Below the pieces are notes generated by a model. That model saw only the letters and a program-made list of their open reading frames with translations, had not been told where the DNA came from and searched no databases. The translations under genes were made by a program, and so were the position numbers. From IMG/VR virus record IMGVR_UViG_3300020439_000020, positions 1-41,102 of that record: a stretch of DNA of 41,102 bases, one strand, 5' to 3'. This document shows, one piece after another, positions 2,154 to 37,426 of the stretch. Numbering within the stretch: position 1 is the stretch's first letter; each line of letters starts with the position of its first letter. Source of the DNA: a virus.

Positions 2154-4045
2154 ATATAGAAAAAAATTTAATTTGCCAACATCCTAAATGTAAAACAATA
2201 TTAAAAGGTAGACAAAGAAGATATTGTTCCGATAAACACAAACGTTATGTTCAAAATCAAAGAGCATTAACAGGTGACAAAACAATAGGAATACCTAAGA
2301 AACAAAAGAAAAATGCTACATCTCGTAAGGGTGAGTTCTATGACCAGTTTTTAGAAGATGGGTATGCATTAGAAATGTTAAAAGGAGAGATGAGTGCTAG
2401 AGAAGTAGCAGACTTATATCAAATATCTCCTGCACAAGTGTCAAGAATGTATGCAGCATTTATAGAGGATAAAGAACTAGAAACACAAAGAGAAGATTGG
2501 ACTGTACCAAAAGATGCAATAAAATCTTTAGAAAATTTTAAAAAGTTTAGAGATAGATATTTTAAAACAGAAACAGGTAAAAAATATGAGACCCCTGATT
2601 TCCAAGCAAAATGGGTAAAATCTATTGCAAGAAATATAGATGATGGTGGAAACTTAATGATACTTAGTCCACCTCGTCATGGTAAAACAGAACTTCTTAT
2701 ACACTTTGCTATTTGGCAAATATGTAAAAATCCTAACGTAAGAATTATGTGGGTTGGGGGTAATGAAGATATTGCTAAAAATGCTGTAGGTTCTGTCTTA
2801 GACCATTTAGATTCAAACGATAAACTTATAGAAGAATTTTGTGGACCAGGTGCATCATTTAGACCAAAGAGTAGGTCAGGTAAGAACTGGTCACAAACTG
2901 CATTTTCAGTAGCTACAAGAAATGTTACAGGTATAAAGTCTCCTACTATGGTTGCTGTAGGTAAAGGCGGAAAGATTCTATCTCGTGACTGCGACCTGAT
3001 TATAGCAGATGACATAGAAGATTTTGGTTCAACAGCACAACCATCAGGTAGAGCAGCAACTAAAAGATGGTGGACAACAACATTATCATCACGTGTAGAG
3101 GCACATACTTCTGTAGTAGTTATTGGCTCAAGACAGCACTCAGATGATTTATATAACTCATTATTAGAAAACAATGCTTGGGAAACTATTGTCGAACAGG
3201 CTCATTCAGATGATTGTGAAATACCTGAAACAGATTTTGATGAACACAAAGATTGTATGTTATGGGAAGGTAAAAGAGATTACAAATGGTTAAATACACA
3301 AAAAGAATCATCTGCTACAACAGGTGGTGTTCATGTATTTGAAATGGTATATCTTAATAGAGCAAACCCTAAAGGTGCATCTATATTTAGTCCTGAAGCA
3401 ATAACAAAATGTTATGACGAAACATTAGATATAGGTGATGTAACAGAATCTGCATATTTAGTTGCAGGTCTTGACCCTGCTGCAACAGGATACCAGGCAG
3501 CATTTTTGTGGGCAATTTATGACGACTCACCACTTAGATTGCAAATGATAGATTTAGAAAACAATAAAGGCGGAGGTATAAAAGAAGCATTACGTGTAAT
3601 GAAAGAGTGGGAACAAATGTATGGATGTTATCACTGGGTTATAGAAGAAAATGCTTTTCAACGTGCAATTAGACAAGATAGAGAACTAAAAGAATATTGT
3701 GCAACTGCAGGAATCATACATGAAGGTCATCAAACACAATCAAAAAACAAATGGGATTCCAAGTATGGAGTTACAGCTATGACATCATTGTTTACAGAAA
3801 AAAATATAATACTTCCTTACAAATCAACAGAAGCAAAAGTTAAATCAGATATGTATAAAAAACAATTATCTTTCTTTGCAAGCAAAGGTAGAGGTTACAA
3901 ATCAGACATAGTAATGGCTAGTTGGTTTCCTATGAAAGTTATTAGAAGGTTACAAAATGCAAGATTTGATGATATGATGGTAGAATATAGACCATCGTTT
4001 AGTGGATTAGATATGGCATCATGGAATGATGCTCCTTGGAGTTAG
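2147..4045 (+). CDS. terL: Terminase large subunit with N-terminal zinc finger
   Basis: 632 aa. The motor and nuclease package concatemeric DNA into the prohead through the portal. The ATPase has a Walker A-type loop SPPRHGKTE at about residues 173-182 and a Walker B CDLIIADDIED at about 281-292. The RNase H-like nuclease shows LDPAATG at ~441, a VIEENAF acidic motif at ~498 and SDIVMA at ~585. The first 35 residues form a CQHPKC...RRYCSDKHKRY zinc-finger-like unit, followed by an HTH-like segment (SAREVADLYQISPAQVSRMYAAF) that may replace a separate small terminase; no terS gene is recognisable nearby. Overlaps the upstream basic gene and abuts the portal gene. Confidence 0.95.
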   Translation: MVDIEKNLICQHPKCKTILKGRQRRYCSDKHKRYVQNQRALTGDKTIGIPKKQKKNATSRKGEFYDQFLEDGYALEMLKGEMSAREVADLYQISPAQVSRMYAAFIEDKELETQREDWTVPKDAIKSLENFKKFRDRYFKTETGKKYETPDFQAKWVKSIARNIDDGGNLMILSPPRHGKTELLIHFAIWQICKNPNVRIMWVGGNEDIAKNAVGSVLDHLDSNDKLIEEFCGPGASFRPKSRSGKNWSQTAFSVATRNVTGIKSPTMVAVGKGGKILSRDCDLIIADDIEDFGSTAQPSGRAATKRWWTTTLSSRVEAHTSVVVIGSRQHSDDLYNSLLENNAWETIVEQAHSDDCEIPETDFDEHKDCMLWEGKRDYKWLNTQKESSATTGGVHVFEMVYLNRANPKGASIFSPEAITKCYDETLDIGDVTESAYLVAGLDPAATGYQAAFLWAIYDDSPLRLQMIDLENNKGGGIKEALRVMKEWEQMYGCYHWVIEENAFQRAIRQDRELKEYCATAGIIHEGHQTQSKNKWDSKYGVTAMTSLFTEKNIILPYKSTEAKVKSDMYKKQLSFFASKGRGYKSDIVMASWFPMKVIRRLQNARFDDMMVEYRPSFSGLDMASWNDAPWS

Positions 4046-5800
4046 ATGTTAGTAGAAGATATAGTCAGCAGAGCAGTTTTTCTTAGAAACATGCATGATA
4101 ATGCTTTATTAGATAGAGCAAGATTTAGAGCAATTATGAATGGTGGTGCTGATGGAATAAGGGCATTACTCGGAAATCAATTAGATATGATGGACGAATC
4201 ATTACTACCTGCACCTAACTTACTTATGTCAGGTTTAGATAGACTTGCACAAAAATTAGGACGTGTACCTAATCTTAGAGTAGATTTAACAAACCCAAGA
4301 GATTCTGAAAGGTCAAAAAGAAAAAAAGAAAAACTTGAAAGAATAATAACTTCATTTGACCAAATGCAAAATCTTAAGGGTCAGTTACCACAAGTAGCAA
4401 GATGGTTACCAGGTTATGGTTTTGCTGTATGGATAATTACGACAAAACAAGACTCAGAAGGTAATTCATATCCTGTAGCAGAACTAAGAGACCCTTACGA
4501 TTGTTTTCCTGGATATTATGGTGCAGACCAAACTCCTGATGAATTAGTAACAATTAGAAGAGTTCCTGTTGGTGAACTTATAGAATTGTATCCTGAATTA
4601 AGGTCTTACTTTAATAACTCAGAAAAGAAAAAGAAATCTGCAGGTGTCAATGTCAGTTCAATATATAACAAAACTGGAGTAGAAAACGGTTCATGGGAAA
4701 ACTCTGACGATAATGGAGATAACATTATTGAATACATGAACATAGAGGGAACATATATTGTTCATCCTGCTTCAGGTAAAATTGTAGATTTTGTACCTAA
4801 CCCACTAAAGTCAGGTCCTGCTTTTGTTGTAGCTAAAAGATTTAGCTTTGACCAAATGCAAGGACAGTTTGACCAAACAATAGGTTTAATGTCATCTATG
4901 GCAAAAATAAATATTATGTCAGTTATTGCTATGGAAGATGCAGTTTTTACAGAAACTAACGTAGTAGGTGAAATAGAATCAGGTCAATACCGTAAAGGTA
5001 GATTTGCTGTAAACTATTTAACTCCTGGGTCACAAGTAGTAAAACCTGTAAACAATTTACCGTATCAATTATTTGAACAAGTAGGAAGAATTGAAAGACA
5101 TCTTAGAGTAGTAGCAGGGTATCCTGTTCAAGATGATGCAATATCTCCTAATTCTTTTGTAACAGGTAGAGGTTTAGAAGAACTTCAAAGTGGTGTATCT
5201 CTTATGGTTAGAGAGTACCAACAAATATTATCGAAAGCATTAGAAGATGTTGACTATAAGAGATTAGAGTTAGACGAAATATTATTTGCAGAAAAAAGAA
5301 AACCATTATCAGGATACATAAAAGGTGCAGCATTTTCAGAAAACTATACTCCTGGCACTGACATAAATAAAAATTATAAAACTACAAGAGTTTATGGAAC
5401 TATGGCAGGTTTTGATGAGCCACAAAAAATTATTACAGGGTTGCAATTACTTCAAGCAGGTATTATCGATAGACAAACTATGCAAGAAGAAATGGATGGT
5501 TTACAAGACCTTACAAAGATTAACGATAGGATTACAAAAGAACGTGCAGAGCGTGTTTTGTTTGAATCATTACTAGCTAGGTCACAACAAGGCGATATGC
5601 AAGCTATGTCAGCTATTACAGAAATATATAGAAACCCTAATAAGATAGATGATATATTAGAAGAGTTCTTCTCTGAACAAGTAGAACAACAACAAGAACA
5701 ACAGTTAGCAGCAGCCGCAGCACAACAACCAGGAGCTGCTCCAGGACAAGGACCTACATCAGTACAAGATATATTTGCACAGATTGCTGCAGGTCAATAA
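4046..5800 (+). CDS. Portal protein
   Basis: 584 aa, starting at the base after the terL stop, the usual place for a portal. The portal forms the dodecameric ring at the capsid vertex through which DNA passes. Typical features are an alpha-helical N-terminus, a mixed central region with ELRDPYDCFPGYYG, the long helix and crown-like region after residue ~350, and a Gln/Ala-rich C-terminal tail (QQQEQQLAAAAAQQ). Assignment rests on size, position and overall character rather than a single motif. Confidence 0.85.
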   Translation: MLVEDIVSRAVFLRNMHDNALLDRARFRAIMNGGADGIRALLGNQLDMMDESLLPAPNLLMSGLDRLAQKLGRVPNLRVDLTNPRDSERSKRKKEKLERIITSFDQMQNLKGQLPQVARWLPGYGFAVWIITTKQDSEGNSYPVAELRDPYDCFPGYYGADQTPDELVTIRRVPVGELIELYPELRSYFNNSEKKKKSAGVNVSSIYNKTGVENGSWENSDDNGDNIIEYMNIEGTYIVHPASGKIVDFVPNPLKSGPAFVVAKRFSFDQMQGQFDQTIGLMSSMAKINIMSVIAMEDAVFTETNVVGEIESGQYRKGRFAVNYLTPGSQVVKPVNNLPYQLFEQVGRIERHLRVVAGYPVQDDAISPNSFVTGRGLEELQSGVSLMVREYQQILSKALEDVDYKRLELDEILFAEKRKPLSGYIKGAAFSENYTPGTDINKNYKTTRVYGTMAGFDEPQKIITGLQLLQAGIIDRQTMQEEMDGLQDLTKINDRITKERAERVLFESLLARSQQGDMQAMSAITEIYRNPNKIDDILEEFFSEQVEQQQEQQLAAAAAQQPGAAPGQGPTSVQDIFAQIAAGQ

Positions 5801-26407: not shown

Positions 26408-26585
26408 CGGCAACGGCTTTACACAGAAAGAGATGTTGAATCTTATATTGGAAGGACAACAGGATATAAACAAACGCATAGATGAGTTACACGAAAAGGT
26501 TAATCAAAAAATATCAAGACAAGAGCTAAGTGGTTGGTTAGTTGCAATCTCGGCACTGGTGGTGTTAATCAATAATTTAATGTGA
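26394..26585 (+). CDS. Coiled-coil protein with C-terminal membrane helix (holin-like)
   Basis: 63 aa from ATG 26394 (GAGG about 10 bases upstream); an earlier ATG at 26358 lacks an RBS. A heptad-like helix (MLNLILEGQQDINKRIDELH) leads into a C-terminal transmembrane helix (GWLVAISALVVLINNLM). This layout resembles XhlA-type hemolysin/holin-associated proteins of Gram-positive phages; not proven. The stop overlaps the GTG of the next gene. Confidence 0.55.
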   Translation: MTYPNGNGFTQKEMLNLILEGQQDINKRIDELHEKVNQKISRQELSGWLVAISALVVLINNLM

Positions 26586-28519
26586 AAAAACTAGCAGTAT
26601 TAACTGCAGTTTTTTTACTTGCTGTGCCTATACATTCTATAGCAGAAGAAACTACAGTCACAGAAACATTTAATGACCAACAAATAAACACAGACATAGA
26701 TATATTGTATGGTGGTAATGACACAGAAGTAGCTGCTGCAACTACTGCATCTCCTGAATGTGCAAGTACAGAAGTAGCAGGAAGTATAGGCATAGAAGAT
26801 TTAGATTGTTTTGGTTCAGAATACTTTAGTTTAAACAGACACGCATTAGGTATAAGAGGTAGTGCAGATAGTATTACTATTGCATTTCCTAATGAACCTT
26901 ACGAGGTAGGTTTTCAATATGGCGCTACAGATGTAGATAATATATCAGGAACTGTTTACTACGATAATGGTGCATCTGAAACATTTACATTAGACCAACA
27001 CACAGATTACACAACTGTATTGTCAAAGTCTTGGGAAGTTGCAGAAGGCGTAGATACTTTTATAACTGAAATAGTTATTGATGGATTAACTGGAGAAAAC
27101 CCTGACTGGTACTTAATAGATAATATATACTATAAGTATGATAATGTACCTACTACAACGACATCTAGTTCGACAACAAGCTCTACCACCTCGTCTACGA
27201 CTACTACATCGACTACGACTACGACTACATTACCTAAAGCGAAAGATGTTGTCGAAGATAATATTACTACGTACTTGGCTTGGGATGAAAATGGATGTGA
27301 ACACCCAAACAATCCTTTATCGTATAAACAATATTTGGAAGCCGTAGAGAGTGGAGATTGGTTTGGTTATCAGCCCAGTGATTGCACTAATATACCTGAT
27401 GATGCTGTTGATATTGTCGAAGAGGAGATAGATGATGAGTTGGACGAAGAGATACTTCGAGATGACAACCTCGGAGAAGAACAAATTGAAGAAGAACTTA
27501 AAGTCGAAGATAGTGAAGAACTCACCGAAGAAGAAATAGCTATTATTGAAGCAGAGACTAAAGCTGAAGAAGAACGTTTACTCCAGGAACAGCTTGATGC
27601 TGAAAAGGAAGAAGAGATATTATTAGAGCTTGAAGAATCTGTAATTGTATTAGAAGATTTATCTGAAGAAGAACTTGAAGAATTTGTAGAGGTTATTAAA
27701 GAACTAGAAGAACTAGAAGAGTTTATAATTGAAGAAGAAGTTATAGAGCTAGATATACCTGAAGATATAGTAGTAGTTATAGAAGAGGAGGATACAGAAG
27801 ATGACATTGTTATTGTGGTGGAAGATGAAGAAGTTGTTGAGGAAGTTTTGGATGAGCCAATACAGGAAGATGTTGAGAAAAAACCTGTAGAGGAACTAAC
27901 TGAAGAAGAAATAGAAGAAGAAGTTTTAGAGATTGTTGAAGTTATAGATGTACCTATTGTTGAAGAGGAACTAACTGAAGAAGAAATCGAAGAGGTCATT
28001 GAAGAGTACGTTGAGGAATTAGAGACAGAAGAAGTTATTGAAGTTCTTGAAGAAGTAAATGACGTAGGTGTACAACAATTAGACCAGGTATCAGAGGAAG
28101 TACAAGAAGTTATTCAGGCAGTAGTTGAAGAAGCTATTGAAGATGTTGAAGAACTAACAGAAGAGCAGGTAGCAGTAGTAGCTGAAGTACTACAAGTTGA
28201 AGAAGAAGATGTAGAGATTATTGCAGTCGCAGTAAAAGAAGATGAGTCTGTTGCAGAAGCTGTTGAGGTATATGTTGAAAGAGCAGTAGAAAATAAAGAT
28301 GTAGAAAACTACACCCTTGCCGATGTTGTTACCGAGGTGCAGTTTGAAGAGTTTATAGAAAACCCAATACAAGTACTGGTGGATATAGAAAACATAGATA
28401 TTTCCAACCTTGGTCAGGATATGACAAGTGACCAAAAGGAAAAAGCACAGGAAGTAGTCGTGCCAGTTATTTTAACTAGAATAGCAAGTATGGCTGCGTT
28501 TATATTTAGGAGAAGTTAA
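26582..28519 (+). CDS. Secreted Glu-rich protein with Thr/Ser linker
   Basis: 645 aa, GTG start. Order: signal peptide (residues ~1-22, ending IHSIAEE); a beta-rich domain (~25-195) with several Cys; a Thr/Ser linker (~197-222); a small Cys-containing segment (YLAWDENGCEHPNNP...); then ~350 residues extremely rich in Glu, Val and Ile with repeats of the type ELTEEEIEE; finally a short hydrophobic stretch and FRRS. The linker type is frequent in secreted actinobacterial proteins. Its C-terminal part is duplicated at 1-527. It may span the envelope, act in lysis or alter the cell surface; function unknown. Confidence 0.75.
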   Translation: MKKLAVLTAVFLLAVPIHSIAEETTVTETFNDQQINTDIDILYGGNDTEVAAATTASPECASTEVAGSIGIEDLDCFGSEYFSLNRHALGIRGSADSITIAFPNEPYEVGFQYGATDVDNISGTVYYDNGASETFTLDQHTDYTTVLSKSWEVAEGVDTFITEIVIDGLTGENPDWYLIDNIYYKYDNVPTTTTSSSTTSSTTSSTTTTSTTTTTTLPKAKDVVEDNITTYLAWDENGCEHPNNPLSYKQYLEAVESGDWFGYQPSDCTNIPDDAVDIVEEEIDDELDEEILRDDNLGEEQIEEELKVEDSEELTEEEIAIIEAETKAEEERLLQEQLDAEKEEEILLELEESVIVLEDLSEEELEEFVEVIKELEELEEFIIEEEVIELDIPEDIVVVIEEEDTEDDIVIVVEDEEVVEEVLDEPIQEDVEKKPVEELTEEEIEEEVLEIVEVIDVPIVEEELTEEEIEEVIEEYVEELETEEVIEVLEEVNDVGVQQLDQVSEEVQEVIQAVVEEAIEDVEELTEEQVAVVAEVLQVEEEDVEIIAVAVKEDESVAEAVEVYVERAVENKDVENYTLADVVTEVQFEEFIENPIQVLVDIENIDISNLGQDMTSDQKEKAQEVVVPVILTRIASMAAFIFRRS

Positions 28520-29777: not shown

Positions 29778-29918
29778 TTAAATGTCAGATGTATCCTCAG
29801 AACCATACATGGCATCATCTGCACATTCTCTACAAAGACCATATTGCTTTCTATCAGCAGTTGTTAATTTTGCTACTGCAATACTTCCGCAAATCTCACA
29901 TGGTTTTAAACCTAAAAT
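29778..29918 (-). CDS. Tiny zinc-ribbon protein, probable ATT start
   Basis: 46 aa if started at ATT 29918, with GGAAGGGG just upstream; an in-frame stop lies before that and no ATG/GTG/TTG is available before the cysteines. The product has CEIC...CREC, a C-x2-C pair repeated 22 residues apart, and an acidic tail. It overlaps the end of the annealing-protein gene by 7 bases. Gene and start are uncertain, but the Cys pairs and coupling argue for translation. Confidence 0.5.
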   Translation of the reverse strand: MLGLKPCEICGSIAVAKLTTADRKQYGLCRECADDAMYGSEDTSDI

Positions 29919-30709
29919 GGTGCTTCCCCTTCCTCAATATCATTAAGTGAACGTGCCTTTGGTGGTGTTATACCTTTTTCCTCCAATGCAACTGTAGTCA
30001 AATTATCGTATGCTTCTTTAAATCCTGGTGGTAAAAACTTAGCGTCTTTGTACCATGACTTAGAATATGTCATACTTCCTTTTTGTTCACCGTTCAAACA
30101 CTTACCACCTGCAGTACATCTAAAATCTGCAGCACGTGGATTCTTCTTATCTTCAGGCATGTATATCTTTACTGGTGAATAACATGGCTTTGGACAAAAT
30201 AATACGTTTGAATCAGAGCTTGTCGTAGTTGTGTTGGAAGGAGCTGTTGACTCTTCAACTACGACTTCGCTCTGCTGTTCAGTGACTGTGGTGTTACCCT
30301 GCGGTGTAGTTGTATCAAATTCTTCCTCTGTTACATCTCCTGACCACAACTCAACACCTAGCCCAAATCTCATGCATGCTCTTTTAAATGCGTCTGATTC
30401 AGCGTCTTTCAACAAAGACCCATCGTTTATGTTTTTGTTATCTAACTTAAATGTGTCAACATCTCCTATACCATCGTATGAATCTGTTCCTAGTTTTATA
30501 GTGCCTTTTGCACCAACGATTCTTTTCTCACCATTGTGTGTTCCATAGATTGGTTCACAAGTCCAGGAGTATGGTATACCACTATCACGTAATCTTTCAA
30601 CGTAACGACTGTGGGTAACATATTTTCCGAACTTTCCTTTGGGTGCATTTTTTACAAGCTCCTTTGGAAATGGTTTAAGTAATTTCTTTAGACTGTCCTC
30701 ATAAGACAT
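29912..30709 (-). CDS. Rad52-like single-strand annealing protein
   Basis: 265 aa, RBS GGAGATAT before ATG. The N-terminal ~130 residues match the Rad52/22 annealing domain: YVTHSRYVERLRDSG, an isolated beta region GAKGTIKLGTDSYDGIG, and the hallmark KDAESDAFKRACMRFGLGVELW. It anneals complementary single strands, promoting recombination and possibly replication. After a Thr/Ser linker, a C-terminal Cys segment (CPKPC...RCTAGGKC) looks like a zinc ribbon. No partner exonuclease or SSB gene is recognised, which is unusual. Confidence 0.82.
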   Translation of the reverse strand: MSYEDSLKKLLKPFPKELVKNAPKGKFGKYVTHSRYVERLRDSGIPYSWTCEPIYGTHNGEKRIVGAKGTIKLGTDSYDGIGDVDTFKLDNKNINDGSLLKDAESDAFKRACMRFGLGVELWSGDVTEEEFDTTTPQGNTTVTEQQSEVVVEESTAPSNTTTTSSDSNVLFCPKPCYSPVKIYMPEDKKNPRAADFRCTAGGKCLNGEQKGSMTYSKSWYKDAKFLPPGFKEAYDNLTTVALEEKGITPPKARSLNDIEEGEAPF

Positions 30710-31044: not shown

Positions 31045-32214
31045 ATGCCTAAAGTGCCTGAAGAATGGGGTAATAACTTTTACAAGTCAGGGTGGCAACC
31101 AGGACTAGAAGTAAATGAACAAACAGGTATAGGTGAAATCACACACGTTGGAACAGACCCAAACTACAGAAATAAGTTTGATTCCATATTATTAGAATGG
31201 GGATTCGACCCTAAGCATTACGAGATAGAGGGTTCAGTAAGAGCATCTTCGTGGAATGTACAGTTAAAAGGTGGCAGAACAGAAACGTTCTACGCTTTCA
31301 AAGGAATAGTAAAGAAAAAAAGACCAGGACACGACAAATATTTTAATGCGTTATTTAAACAAGCAGGTCGTAAACCACCACTCAAACTGCGCACACACGG
31401 TGGTGATACCGCATTTTTATTTTTCATGGCAGATTGGCAACTTGGAAAAAAAGATTACGGAGTAGAGAATACAATCAAGAGGTATGACATAGCTTTACAA
31501 GATGCTGTAAACAGAATTAAAGAACTGCGTAAGATAGGTGTTCAGATAGATGAAATATACATGATAGGTTTGGGTGACCTCACTGAGAACTGTTATGGAT
31601 TTTATGACAGTCAACCTTATAATATTGAACTCACATTGATAGAACAGTATGCGTTGGCTAGGTCAATGATGATGAAAACAGTAGATACCTTTTTACCACA
31701 CGCAGATAAGTTAGTGTTGGCAGGTGCGCCAGGGAATCATGGGGAAGCTGCACGTTCGCAAAAGGGTCAAGTGGTTACAAATAGATTAGATAATACAGAC
31801 ACCATGCATTTGCAGATATGTGGTGAGATTATGAAAGCTAATCCTGAAAGATACAAAAAAGTATCTGTAGAAGTTCCTGATAGTTTTCATCAGGTGATGG
31901 ATATAAAAGGTATTACATGCGGATGGACACATGGTCACATGACATCAGGAGGTGGAAGCAATCCTGAAACTAAAATTGAGAATTGGTGGAAGGGTCAGAT
32001 GTATGGGTTTCTGCCTGCGGGTCAATGTCAGATTCTTATTACAGGTCACTACCATCATTTTAGAAGTAAACAACAAGGTGATAGAACTTGGTTTCAGTCT
32101 CCTAGCTTGGATAAATCTATAGACTTTACAGCTAGAAGTGGTCTATGGTCTCACCCAGGTGTGCTTACTTTTACTGTGAATCAAAAGGGTTGGGATAATT
32201 TAAAGATATTATAG
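31045..32214 (+). CDS. Calcineurin-like metallophosphoesterase (SbcD/Mre11-like?)
   Basis: 389 aa, RBS AAAGGAGG. The metal-binding motifs are in order: ADWQLG near residue 132 (D-x-[HQ]), GLGDLTEN near 176, GAPGNHGE near 230, HGHM near 295 and GHYHH near 336. These bind two metal ions and hydrolyse phosphoesters. A DNA-processing role (SbcD/Mre11-type) is likely beside a recombinase but is not proven; no SbcC-like ATPase is present. The only rightward gene inside a leftward block, with its own promoter; it converges on, and overlaps by 6 bases, the endonuclease gene. Confidence 0.8.
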   Translation: MPKVPEEWGNNFYKSGWQPGLEVNEQTGIGEITHVGTDPNYRNKFDSILLEWGFDPKHYEIEGSVRASSWNVQLKGGRTETFYAFKGIVKKKRPGHDKYFNALFKQAGRKPPLKLRTHGGDTAFLFFMADWQLGKKDYGVENTIKRYDIALQDAVNRIKELRKIGVQIDEIYMIGLGDLTENCYGFYDSQPYNIELTLIEQYALARSMMMKTVDTFLPHADKLVLAGAPGNHGEAARSQKGQVVTNRLDNTDTMHLQICGEIMKANPERYKKVSVEVPDSFHQVMDIKGITCGWTHGHMTSGGGSNPETKIENWWKGQMYGFLPAGQCQILITGHYHHFRSKQQGDRTWFQSPSLDKSIDFTARSGLWSHPGVLTFTVNQKGWDNLKIL

Positions 32215-33420
32215 TGGCACTGGTTCTCCCATGAGAGAGTCAAGCATTTTCTTGAGTTCGTAATACTTAATCATTTCACCGTAAATGATTTCTGTTTTAC
32301 CTCCGTAATGTTTAAATATTGGGTCATAAAATCTGTTGTTTTCTTTATCGTTTTTTCTAGGTGAGATAGCCATGCTTTCTGCATCTATGTAAAATTCTCG
32401 TTCTGCAAGTCTTGCATCGTGCTTCGTAGGAAAATTGTAAAGTAATTTAAAAGCGAATCCATTACGCTCTAAGTATCTTACACGTTGACTCGGCTTGTGA
32501 GTAATACCTACCTTGTAAATGTTCAACTCATTGTGATACATACAGTACAAGTAACCGTCTTTTTCTTTGTAGTTGTCACGATTAATTGTTTTGTGATATT
32601 TGTACTTGAGATTGTACCTAGCAGTTTTGCAGTCGTAAGCTAAGCAGATTGTTTGATTTGGTTTCTTTGTTACAAATTGTGTCTTACAAATAATACACTC
32701 TTTCTTGTACGGACCTTTTAATTTTTTATGTTTTTCGTAAGACGCTTTTGCCCTACAGTAATCTGTGCAGTACATAGCACGAGGGTCTGCACTACGAAAT
32801 GTATTTGTTTTACAATATTTACATTTGATTTCTCTGTAAACTTTTGCAACCCTTCGACTTTCTTTCAAACACTTGTCGCTACAATAAGTATTTTTTCTTG
32901 ATATTTCTGTATTACAAATTGCACAATATTTTTGGTGTATATATTTCCTACCTCTTTCTATTAAGTTACAATCAGGTGTACAGTACTGATGATTCGCTTT
33001 ATTTGGTATGTAGTAATTTTTGCATCTGTAAAATGCTTTGCATTTAATTTCTAGTCTGTGATGTGCTGCGTACAATATTGGTCTAATGTTTTTAAGTTCT
33101 TCTATACTTTTACCGTAATCACGGTAATTTGCTTTGCATTTCCAATTATCTCTGCAACATTTAGGTGGTGGTTTTCCTGTAGGCAAAATCTCTATTTTTT
33201 TGTTACACCAATGACATCTTGGTTCAAGTACAGGTGTAGGTACTTCTTTGTTTCTTTTTTTGTAGTAACTTATACGCTTATTTTTTAAGGCAACTATTCT
33301 TCTGTTTTCTTTACTACACTCATCACTACAAGTTTTTACACCATTAGCTTTGACAATAAATTCTTTGAAACAGATAATACAATCTTTTTTTGAACCGTGT
33401 CTAATTACTTCTTTGTTCAT
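32209..33420 (-). CDS. GIY-YIG-like homing endonuclease with zinc-finger array
   Basis: 403 aa from ATG 33420 (AAGGAGGAGC upstream). The N-terminal ~290 residues hold about six Cys-rich fingers, each a C-x2-C followed by a C-S-D/C-T-D-type second half (CIICFKEF...CSDEC; CHWC...CC; CAICNTEI...CSDKC; CKYC...CTDYC; CIICKTQF...CLAYDC). The C-terminal ~100 residues carry GYLYCMYHNELNIYKVGIT, a following R and an AEREF, in the order of GIY-YIG/T5orf172 nucleases. Fingers would recognise DNA and the C-terminus cut it. Probably a free-standing homing endonuclease; the key GIY motif is degenerate. Confidence 0.65.
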   Translation of the reverse strand: MNKEVIRHGSKKDCIICFKEFIVKANGVKTCSDECSKENRRIVALKNKRISYYKKRNKEVPTPVLEPRCHWCNKKIEILPTGKPPPKCCRDNWKCKANYRDYGKSIEELKNIRPILYAAHHRLEIKCKAFYRCKNYYIPNKANHQYCTPDCNLIERGRKYIHQKYCAICNTEISRKNTYCSDKCLKESRRVAKVYREIKCKYCKTNTFRSADPRAMYCTDYCRAKASYEKHKKLKGPYKKECIICKTQFVTKKPNQTICLAYDCKTARYNLKYKYHKTINRDNYKEKDGYLYCMYHNELNIYKVGITHKPSQRVRYLERNGFAFKLLYNFPTKHDARLAEREFYIDAESMAISPRKNDKENNRFYDPIFKHYGGKTEIIYGEMIKYYELKKMLDSLMGEPVPL

Positions 33421-33437
33421 GCTCCTCCTTTCAGACA

Positions 33438-33464
33438 TGGGGAACGGAGGTGCAGTGTTCCCCA
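33438..33464 (-). promoter_or_regulatory. Perfect hairpin in endonuclease leader
   Basis: TGGGGAAC (33438-33445) and GTTCCCCA (33457-33464) make an 8-bp GC-rich stem with an 11-base loop just upstream of the endonuclease RBS. No T run follows on the minus strand. It may damp or attenuate endonuclease expression. Confidence 0.5.
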
Positions 33465-33491
33465 CATCATACCTAGTGGTTTGCTAGGAAT

Positions 33492-35934: not shown

Positions 35935-36085
35935 ATTTATCCTTTCTCTGACGTGTAACATTACGCCAACTTCCTACTTTCTTGAATAGTTCCCAACACA
36001 TCTCGCATTTGCCGTCACCAATGAAGTAACCCCACAGGGTATCATTGAACAAGCAAATCTCACACTTATATGATTTCGAGTTCAT
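35918..36085 (-). CDS. Tiny zinc-ribbon protein
   Basis: 55 aa from ATG 36085 (GGAAAG upstream). MNSKSYKCEICLFND...GDGKCEMCWELF: two C-x2-C pairs 16 residues apart. The remaining tail is basic (RNVTRQRKDKY). Likely zinc-bound, perhaps nucleic-acid binding. Overlaps both neighbours. Confidence 0.6.
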   Translation of the reverse strand: MNSKSYKCEICLFNDTLWGYFIGDGKCEMCWELFKKVGSWRNVTRQRKDKYVYTS

Positions 36086-36254
36086 TGAGTCTTTCCTTGA
36101 TTGCTTTGAGCAATGCTCTGTTTCTTGTACCTCTGCCCATAACACTATCAGCGATAGTGGTATCAGCTTCGATAAAGAGAGCAAAGTCTCGGTAGATACG
36201 GTGAGCTAATTCTAAATTACCTGCACCGTGTATTTCTCTGAGTTTGTTACCCAT
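36066..36254 (-). CDS. Small helical hypothetical protein
   Basis: 62 aa from ATG 36254, chosen for GAGGAGGTGAAC; an upstream in-frame ATG lies inside the first hairpin. Helical: ELAHRIYRDFALFIEADTTI and NRALLKAIKERLNELEII. It is the first gene after the hairpin array, so a transcript crossing the array would carry it. No family recognised. Confidence 0.55.
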   Translation of the reverse strand: MGNKLREIHGAGNLELAHRIYRDFALFIEADTTIADSVMGRGTRNRALLKAIKERLNELEII

Positions 36255-36271
36255 GTTCACCTCCTCGTATA

Positions 36272-36350
36272 TAGATAACTTGATAGACACAGGTCACAGA
36301 AAGGAACTGTCGAACGTTACGTACATACCCCATGTCTATCAAGCTACCTA
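36272..36350 (-). repeat. Long inverted repeat 1 of the hairpin array
   Basis: Arms at 36272-36289 and 36333-36350, each 18 bases, with 16 Watson-Crick pairs and two positions that are A-C on the plus strand but U-G in minus-strand RNA. The inner half (ATAGACA/TGTCTAT) differs from repeats 2 and 3 but pairing is kept. Loop of 43 bases. Confidence 0.75.
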
Positions 36351-36478
36351 CTTACTACTGGCTTACACACTTAAGTCTTAGCAGTTTACGTAGTTCGTAA
36401 GTAGCTTCTGATGATGTCATTAAACAACTCAGTCTTGTAGATATTTACTTTTCTTTATTGTTTAATACATTGCTATCA

Positions 36479-36574
36479 TAGATAGCTCGTAGCACACGTA
36501 CAGGGAAATAACTTAAGTGGAAAGTACACCACGTTATTTTTACTAAACAAACCCTATGTGCTACAAGCTACCTA
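36479..36574 (-). repeat. Long inverted repeat 2 of the hairpin array
   Basis: Arms at 36479-36496 and 36557-36574. 16 Watson-Crick pairs and two G-U pairs in minus-strand RNA. The right arm is identical to that of repeat 3. The loop contains a nested AAATAAC/GTTATTT stem with GTGG/CCAC inside it. Confidence 0.75.
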
Positions 36575-36737
36575 CTTTCATAAGTAGCTAGACCTTTTGA
36601 TACCTGTCTAGGTATGACACACTTCTGTCAAGCAACCGATATGAGTTATAGACTTCGGTTAGTCTTGCTACCTACAGCCCAAGCACGAAAGCGATTAAGC
36701 ACTTGGGCTATGGTACTGAACTATTGCTAGTACAGTG

Positions 36738-36838
36738 TAGATAGCTTGTAACACACAAGGAACGAGGTCTGCAATTAGTTGTTTCGTTCTTATCCAGTTA
36801 TGAACTGGCTACCTTTCTTATGTGCTACAAGCTACCTA
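36738..36838 (-). repeat. Long inverted repeat 3 of the hairpin array
   Basis: Arms at 36738-36755 and 36821-36838. 16 Watson-Crick pairs and two G-U pairs in minus-strand RNA. The loop carries a perfect CCAGTT/AACTGG hairpin (36794-36799, 36803-36808). Confidence 0.75.
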
Positions 36839-36941
36839 CGTTCAGTCGTTAGTCACAGGGCATTTGGAACTAACTCTTACTTGTAGATAGCTAATTGCTT
36901 TGGCTATCAGCTTATCAGTTGCTTCTCACGTACTGAAGCAA

Positions 36942-37283
36942 TCAAAAACTTCTCCACATTACGATACCTTCTGTACCTGCATGTGTCTTTACATGTTCCC
37001 AATGCCAATCCATTGAGTAATCTCCTACTATTGCTTCTTCATCTAGGTATGGTACGAGCTTGTCATCAATACCCCATACCTCTACGAAGTCATTGAAAAT
37101 CGTGTAGCTGTATTCATCTTCACTAACGAAATGAACACAAGCCATGAAGTCATCAAAGTAATCTTTATTTTTGTCACGTATACTGTAGTGTTCTAAGAAC
37201 ACATCAAGGATAGCTTGACACTCGTCCTCGTCATAGCTCCCTCCTTGTGCTACTACCACATCTTTGACTGTGTGTTTACTCAT
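36942..37283 (-). CDS. Acidic hypothetical protein
   Basis: 113 aa from ATG 37283, which overlaps the upstream stop (TAATG) and has GGGAGGATTTC before it. Strongly acidic: DEDECQAILDVFLEHY, VSEDEYSYTIFNDFVEVWG, YLDEEAIVGDYSMDW. The acid-rich pattern is reminiscent of DNA-mimic antirestriction proteins, but I cannot assign it to ArdA or any named family. Last gene before the hairpin array. Confidence 0.55.
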   Translation of the reverse strand: MSKHTVKDVVVAQGGSYDEDECQAILDVFLEHYSIRDKNKDYFDDFMACVHFVSEDEYSYTIFNDFVEVWGIDDKLVPYLDEEAIVGDYSMDWHWEHVKTHAGTEGIVMWRSF

Positions 37284-37426
37284 TAGAAATCCTCCCATAG
37301 TGTCTCTGATTGTTCATTATATTTCCAATTCTCGTTTATCCATGGGGAGTCTAGCTTGTAGAGTTTACCGTGTTGGTCTTGCACAACCACGTCCCATATC
37401 TCGTATTCTAATTTTTCTTTATCCAC
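37283..37426 (-). CDS. Small hypothetical protein
   Basis: 47 aa, GTG start in a TAGTG overlap with the upstream stop, with GGAAAG upstream. Trp-rich: YEIWDVVVQDQHGKLYKLDS then PWINENWKYNE. One-base overlap with the next gene. No family recognised. Confidence 0.55.
   Translation of the reverse strand: MDKEKLEYEIWDVVVQDQHGKLYKLDSPWINENWKYNEQSETLWEDF

Follow-up and report, generated by a model that had tools for sequence, protein, structure and literature searches.

A hairpin chain with interchangeable modules, almost certainly a structured RNA, at one intergenic locus of uncultivated phages

In an uncultivated phage, long inverted repeats fill one intergenic gap, which raises the question of whether they act as RNA or as DNA, and to what end. 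The stretch of viral DNA analysed here (the window; 41,102 nt) contains, on its minus strand, a non-coding gap at 36255-36941, bounded by the stop codon of gene A at 36942 and the ATG of gene B at 36254-36252. An earlier note had described three inverted repeats with 18-base arms in this gap, and their coordinates match the sequence as claimed. On the plus strand, the six imperfect arm positions, two per repeat, are indeed A-C or C-A without exception; on the minus strand they become G-U or U-G. Beyond that description, the gap contains a fourth hairpin, a small hairpin module (module A, 36882-36840), and two more linker modules between the stems. In the order of the putative RNA, the features are as follows.

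36942..37298, minus strand: gene A (118 aa), the upstream neighbour with respect to transcription; the array gap opens at its stop codon
36883..36891, minus strand: lone 3'-type arm GCTATCTAC, the first arm of the array, read from the sequence
36840..36882, minus strand: module A, a small hairpin (AAGUA-AG-A-stem-CCCUGU loop-stem-G-A-CU-GAAC) with conserved AGUA/GAA flanks
36737..36839, minus strand: hairpin 1 in RNA order (third repeat of the earlier note), with a 23-bp stem and a 57-nt loop module
36676..36736, minus strand: linker module with two stem-loops (ACUG..CAGU and AGCCCAAG..CUUGGGCU), of a family that recurs in other arrays
36580..36675, minus strand: fourth hairpin, placed by its arm sequence; weaker but built like the others (GUAGGUAGC...GCUACUUAU), with a branched module inside
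36478..36575, minus strand: hairpin 2 (second repeat of the earlier note), with a 20-bp uninterrupted stem
36352..36477, minus strand: linker region, the last part of which (36396-36352) is a module used as a hairpin loop in other phages
36271..36351, minus strand: hairpin 3 (first repeat of the earlier note), with a 23-bp stem and variant inner arms GAUAGACA/UGUCUAUC
36260..36265, minus strand: Shine-Dalgarno sequence AGGAGG of gene B, 5 nt past the last hairpin
36066..36254, minus strand: gene B (62 aa from the ATG at 36254), the downstream neighbour

These hairpins stand out from the rest of the window. A sequence-blind scan of both strands for stems of at least 16 bp, with G-U pairs allowed, returned four uninterrupted stems. 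Three belong to the minus-strand hairpins, with lengths of 23, 20, and 23 bp, and the fourth is unrelated and 17 bp long; at 18 bp or more, the three hairpins are the only stems in the window. The minus-strand folds of hairpins 1, 2, and 3 reach -45.9, -42.0, and -36.8 kcal/mol (z = -7.7, -6.4, and -5.9), values equalled by 0 of 200 shuffles in each case. For the gap as a whole, the minus-strand fold (-243.6, z -8.2) is stronger than the plus-strand fold (-191.2, z -4.2). A covariance model (R1) scores hairpin 1 at 68.7 bits (E 7e-11), hairpin 2 at 59.9 bits, and hairpin 3 at 60.3 bits; the fourth hairpin (36675-36580) scores 16.3 bits (E 0.44), below significance.

The same stem is common among uncultivated viruses. 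A pattern consisting of the outer 11-12 bp of both arms around a free middle of 50-80 nt matched at least 119 stretches in IMG/VR. The 8 bp just inside the pattern, which played no part in the selection, pair at seven or more of eight positions in 116 of the 119 listed viral loci, and the hairpin stem is present in at least 116 IMG/VR contigs; the three loci that failed (L017, L052, and L090) were set aside. The only match in GTDB (257 Gb of genomes), from an Acidobacteria MAG, pairs at just six of eight inner positions and was rejected. A search of isolated-phage DNA in INPHARED returned chance matches of 29-37 nt alone, none of which covers the hairpins. Together, these outcomes describe a viral element that is frequent in metagenomic data and missing from the isolate records searched. 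All sequences are metagenomic contigs, and the pattern favours the commonest stem, so that rarer stem variants are under-counted and the search itself accounts for part of the TAGC/GCTA conservation seen in the stems. Five loci (L034, L039, L046, L064, and L069) have inner stem sequences that are quite different (e.g. GTAGATAGCGTGGTGTGTATAGT/GCTGTACACACCACGCTATTTAC) and still fully paired; the hairpin class is therefore wider than the search pattern. That the inverted repeats arose by chance can be given next to no credence, considering that the sole three stems of this length in 41 kb share one gap, that more than 100 contigs have such stems, which covary among them, and that the GTDB set gave one poorly paired match.

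The stem, of about 22 bp, consists of an outer 9-12 bp conserved in sequence (GUAGGUAGCUUG...CAAGCUAUCUAY) and an inner part that varies with compensation. In a curated alignment of 31 hairpins, 98.4% of cells are paired and 13 of the 22 stem pairs show compensatory double changes (0 of 500 shuffles as high, with the sequences treated as unrelated). Because those 31 were found partly by pairing, a less biased test is provided by 53 distinct inner combinations from arms chosen by the outer 9 bp alone, among which 40 pair at 10 or more of 11 positions (shuffled mean 10.2, maximum 17, again with the sequences treated as unrelated). With the strand set solely by the outer wobble at bp 5, the inner stem cells comprise 358 Watson-Crick, 52 G-U, 5 A-C, and 3 other combinations. 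A covariance model built from the 31 hairpins prefers the sense over the antisense strand by about 13-32 bits in 25 long contigs. Covariation in homologues, which the earlier note had set as a check, is thus found, and its proposal of selection on a minus-strand RNA rather than a DNA cruciform is borne out by this compensation and by the excess of G-U over A-C.

The repeated outer arms would also permit each 3' arm to pair with the next 5' arm. Indeed, in many arrays each 5' arm could pair to its left or its right, and the lone first arm and odd arm number, allowing two pairings, could suggest a switch that controls translation or transcription of the downstream gene, particularly as the last hairpin often lies a few nucleotides ahead of a ribosome site. 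The pairing between neighbouring hairpins, however, shows no covariation of the inner arms (14 against 15.6 in shuffled data), which identifies the hairpin register as the selected one, and the downstream genes differ among phages. We consider such a switch improbable.

Along the RNA, 3'-type arms (GCUAUCUAY, GCUACUUAC) alternate with 5'-type arms (GUAGRUAGC), and many arrays consist of a 3' arm followed by n repetitions of a 5' arm and a 3' arm. What lies between the arms, whether hairpin loop or linker, is drawn from a common pool of 309 distinct sense-strand modules in roughly 136 families, a count that is approximate and probably includes some chance joins, as shuffled scores reach 19.5 at their 99.9th percentile and the clustering threshold was a score of 17. 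Fifty-five families have two or more members, 81 of the 136 are singletons, and 11 serve as both loop and linker; the modules examined are about 20-130 nt long. Across 115 arrays there are 98 different orders, and of the 211 pairs of neighbouring modules only 21 are seen more than once. Within the window, the 36676-36736 linker belongs to a family with 5 members in 6 contexts, and the module at 36396-36352 to a family (GUAAACUGCUAAGACUUAAGUGUGUAAGCC) with members in both roles.

Module A is the commonest module and has the form [AU]AGUA-RG-A-stem-CCCUGUU-stem-A-CY-GAA. Among 32 distinct aligned members, six of the seven predicted pairs change on both sides, including the R-Y pair beside the AGUA/GAA flanks, and the CCCUGU loop is conserved. 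Flanks of the AGUA/GAA type commonly mark a bulged-G motif (sarcin-ricin or loop E), and module A may be bulged-G-like.

Taken together, these comparisons of sequence demonstrate a chain of hairpins encoded on the coding strand of one intergenic locus, and the element is almost certainly a conserved, modular structured RNA. The first observation is confirmed but was understated: the exchangeable modules and the spread over at least 116 contigs lay beyond the view of the earlier note. Its statement that no phage RNA class is known with this form agrees with Rfam 15, which gave no match at the gathering threshold in the window and 20 homologous regions; permissive Rfam searches gave weak matches alone, far under gathering scores. 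ARAGORN called no tRNA or tmRNA gene in the window and 25 other loci, and such an array is nowhere described in the open-access literature searched. The nearest relatives in kind are the GOLLD-like orphan RNAs of phages and viromes (Rfam; PMC2864571, PMC12286853), which are likewise structured non-coding RNAs of unclear function from comparative genomics. Those RNAs are single large conserved architectures, whereas the array described here is a hairpin chain of no fixed length, its modules are interchangeable, and Rfam has no match for it.

The arrays turn over by whole units. The window phage and a close relative, G008 (terminase 94% identical, flanking blocks mostly 82-97%), have arrays that differ in this way, and one insertion present in G008 is delimited by the 9-nt arm. 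Oriented segments WIN 2561-2617 and WIN 2609-2683 (window position is about 39500 minus the index) correspond to two blocks of G008 that are separated by about 190 nt, and what the two segments share is exactly GCTATCTAY, the arm at 36883-36891. A loop module of a 40-kb phage also occurs unchanged in an unrelated 65-kb contig (G017). Two genes of the window bear on how such exchange may proceed.

29912..30709, minus strand: single-strand annealing protein, Rad52-like (phrog_3290, E 6e-10), a candidate agent of module exchange
31045..32214, plus strand: phage exonuclease beside the annealing protein (phrog_284, E 3e-56)

An annealing protein related to that of the window is found in 16 of 17 phages of the family. 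Tyrosine integrase (PF00589) is absent from these 17 phages and present in 14 of 14 controls; Y1 transposase (PF01797) is likewise absent from the 17. Homologous recombination at the repeated arms would therefore be the simplest route of exchange.

These data bear on a reading in which the arms are DNA sites, either recombinase targets of mobile cassettes (attC-like) or palindromic element ends (REPIN/BIME-like), and the RNA features are incidental. That a unit was gained or lost precisely at the 9-nt arm, and that modules are reshuffled, would fit, and REP sequences begin with GTAG, as do the arms here. Integron cassette arrays resemble the phage arrays in their conserved outer arms, variable middle, folded hairpins, and serial reshuffled content; the phage arrays differ in having no tyrosine integrase and no ORF-carrying cassettes, their modules being too short for ordinary genes, and in showing RNA-type wobble on the transcribed strand. 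REP, REPIN, and BIME elements share the GTAG foot and the paired inverted arms around a variable middle, but are dispersed by the RAYT (Y1) transposase, whereas the array is confined to essentially one locus per genome, without that enzyme, and its stem evolves with G-U compensation. The tolerance of G-U but not A-C on one strand, the position on the gene strand, and the covarying internal stem of module A also speak against DNA sites, and we regard this reading as very improbable.

The genomic setting is consistent but not fixed by any one neighbour. Strong matches form one locus of 1-4 hairpins per record in all 25 long contigs, window included, with a few weak matches elsewhere. A terminase like that of the window (52-94% identity) is encoded by 22 of the 24 other long contigs, these being 31-43 kb in length; G002 and G017 (71.8 and 65.0 kb) have arrays without the terminase or capsid protein of the window. 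Wherever the two were compared, the array and the terminase gene lie on opposite strands and no more than a few kb apart, and 87% of ORF bases within 2 kb of the array are on its sense strand. The start of the array typically falls within tens of nucleotides of the preceding stop codon, and in about half of the phages its end is followed directly by a recognisable ribosome site. No constant partner protein was found near the array, the best cluster occurring in 12 of 24 phages. Gene A, which has no match in PHROGs or Pfam, has relatives at six loci (76-94% identity), and homologues of gene B lie close to the array in 7 of 24 phages. Among 22 contigs chosen solely by terminase, mostly fragments, 7 have the hairpin; in three relatives, the stretch of several kb directly before the terminase (the same gene order being assumed) has no such hairpin, so the array is common but dispensable. 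The terminase and capsid protein of the window are nearest to actinobacteriophage proteins (about 27-31% identity) and its G+C content is 35%; the host may be a marine actinobacterium.

The best explanation, which we hold tentatively and at somewhat less than an even chance, is that the modules are a trans-acting payload of decoys or regulators carried on double-stranded RNA struts. The array would be co-transcribed with its operon, and the stems, two helical turns long, would serve as struts that are probably cut by a host double-strand RNase such as RNase III (RNase III was not detected in the 17 phages). Such putative cleavage would free stable module RNAs, and these would act in trans, most likely by occupying host RNA-binding factors or defence nucleases; the T-arm-like hairpins of a few modules, resembling part of a tRNA, fit such a role. 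Conflict with the host would drive module turnover, through homologous recombination at the shared arms by the phage's own annealing protein and exonuclease. A more specific version, to which we give less weight and which is somewhat unlikely, is modular RNA counter-defence, in which each phage has its own set of decoys or inhibitors against RNA-directed host defences, taken from a common pool and swapped at the struts.

The main rival, plausible though doubtful, is a cis-acting operon spacer, in which the stems are processing or stabilising hairpins of the RNase III type, with the modules as filler, either protective or neutral. A length of about 22 bp is suitable for RNase III, and the stems found here (20-23 bp, about two helical turns, between co-directional genes) have the features of an RNase III signal. 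In the early region of T7, RNase III processing hairpins lie between phage genes, and they resemble the array as long hairpins between co-transcribed genes; the array differs in occupying one gap per genome, with several hairpins per gap, conserved interchangeable modules, and cleavage that is putative. The array is also on the gene strand and in many phages spans the distance from upstream stop codon to downstream ribosome site, as a cis-acting element also would, which counts against a payload, as do the lack of a consistently adjoining partner protein and the dispensability of the array. Part of the module diversity could be neutral filler, given the 81 singleton families. A spacer, however, would be expected in several gaps rather than at one locus per genome, and the flanking genes vary from phage to phage. 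Furthermore, the modules form conserved families, and at least module A has covariation of its own and a conserved loop, which filler does not need. Three observations, none of which a spacer requires, tip the balance toward a payload: the loop of module A is kept while its stem changes with compensation, identical modules are exchanged among unrelated phages, and module content differs between close relatives.

Serial small structured RNA units that phages can gain by recombination are known from ToxI of type III toxin-antitoxin systems, which consists of near-identical tandem RNA repeats and has phage-borne copies. The units here are unlike one another in sequence, no toxin is identified nearby, and none of the ten window proteins scanned matches a toxin family.

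If a trans-acting payload is correct, these phages diversify RNA as other viruses diversify proteins, with a standard connector stem and exchangeable structured inserts, and module exchange reaches even unrelated phages. A phage RNA class would be added in common uncultivated viruses, and the roughly 136 module families in the pool, of which about 60 recur in several arrays, would offer natural RNA pieces for trials on host factors and defence systems.

Some modules have further features. C-rich runs (CCCUGUU, UUCCCCUU, CCCUUUCU) in loop and linker modules of many arrays recall the anti-Shine-Dalgarno loops of small RNAs. In modules, CCC and GGG are unpaired in 24 of 53 and 7 of 41 occurrences, respectively, and CCCTTT occurs in 7 module families compared with 1 for AAAGGG. 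As CCC and GGG are found in similar numbers of families (38 and 32), anti-Shine-Dalgarno pairing as the purpose of the payload was set aside as suggestive only.

A T-arm-like hairpin is found in 5 module families, against 0.42 by shuffles and 0 antisense. One hairpin loop (L130, 2622-2766, in G003) has D-loop-like and T-arm-like parts (GUAGGUUCAAAUCCUACC) and is a possible tRNA mimic inside an array. Upstream of the array in the 65-kb contig G017 (L150, about 3960-4060) lies a tRNA-like sequence, not called by ARAGORN, with a 7-bp GGGGGUG/CACCUCC acceptor-like stem and a T-arm (GGGGUUCAAUUCCCC), which resembles a tmRNA without its reading frame.

Elsewhere in the window, a 418-aa protein encoded at 32209-33465 (minus strand) has zinc-ribbon-like CxxC repeats in series, matches MUG113 weakly, and is possibly a GIY-YIG-type nuclease beside the recombination genes. 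Two glutamate-rich proteins encoded on the plus strand at 12-527, which runs into the window start, and at 26582-28519 have nearly identical C-terminal parts (ENYTLADVVTE.QFE.FIENPI.VLVD...FRRS); the genome may thus carry a duplicated tail of a structural or surface protein.
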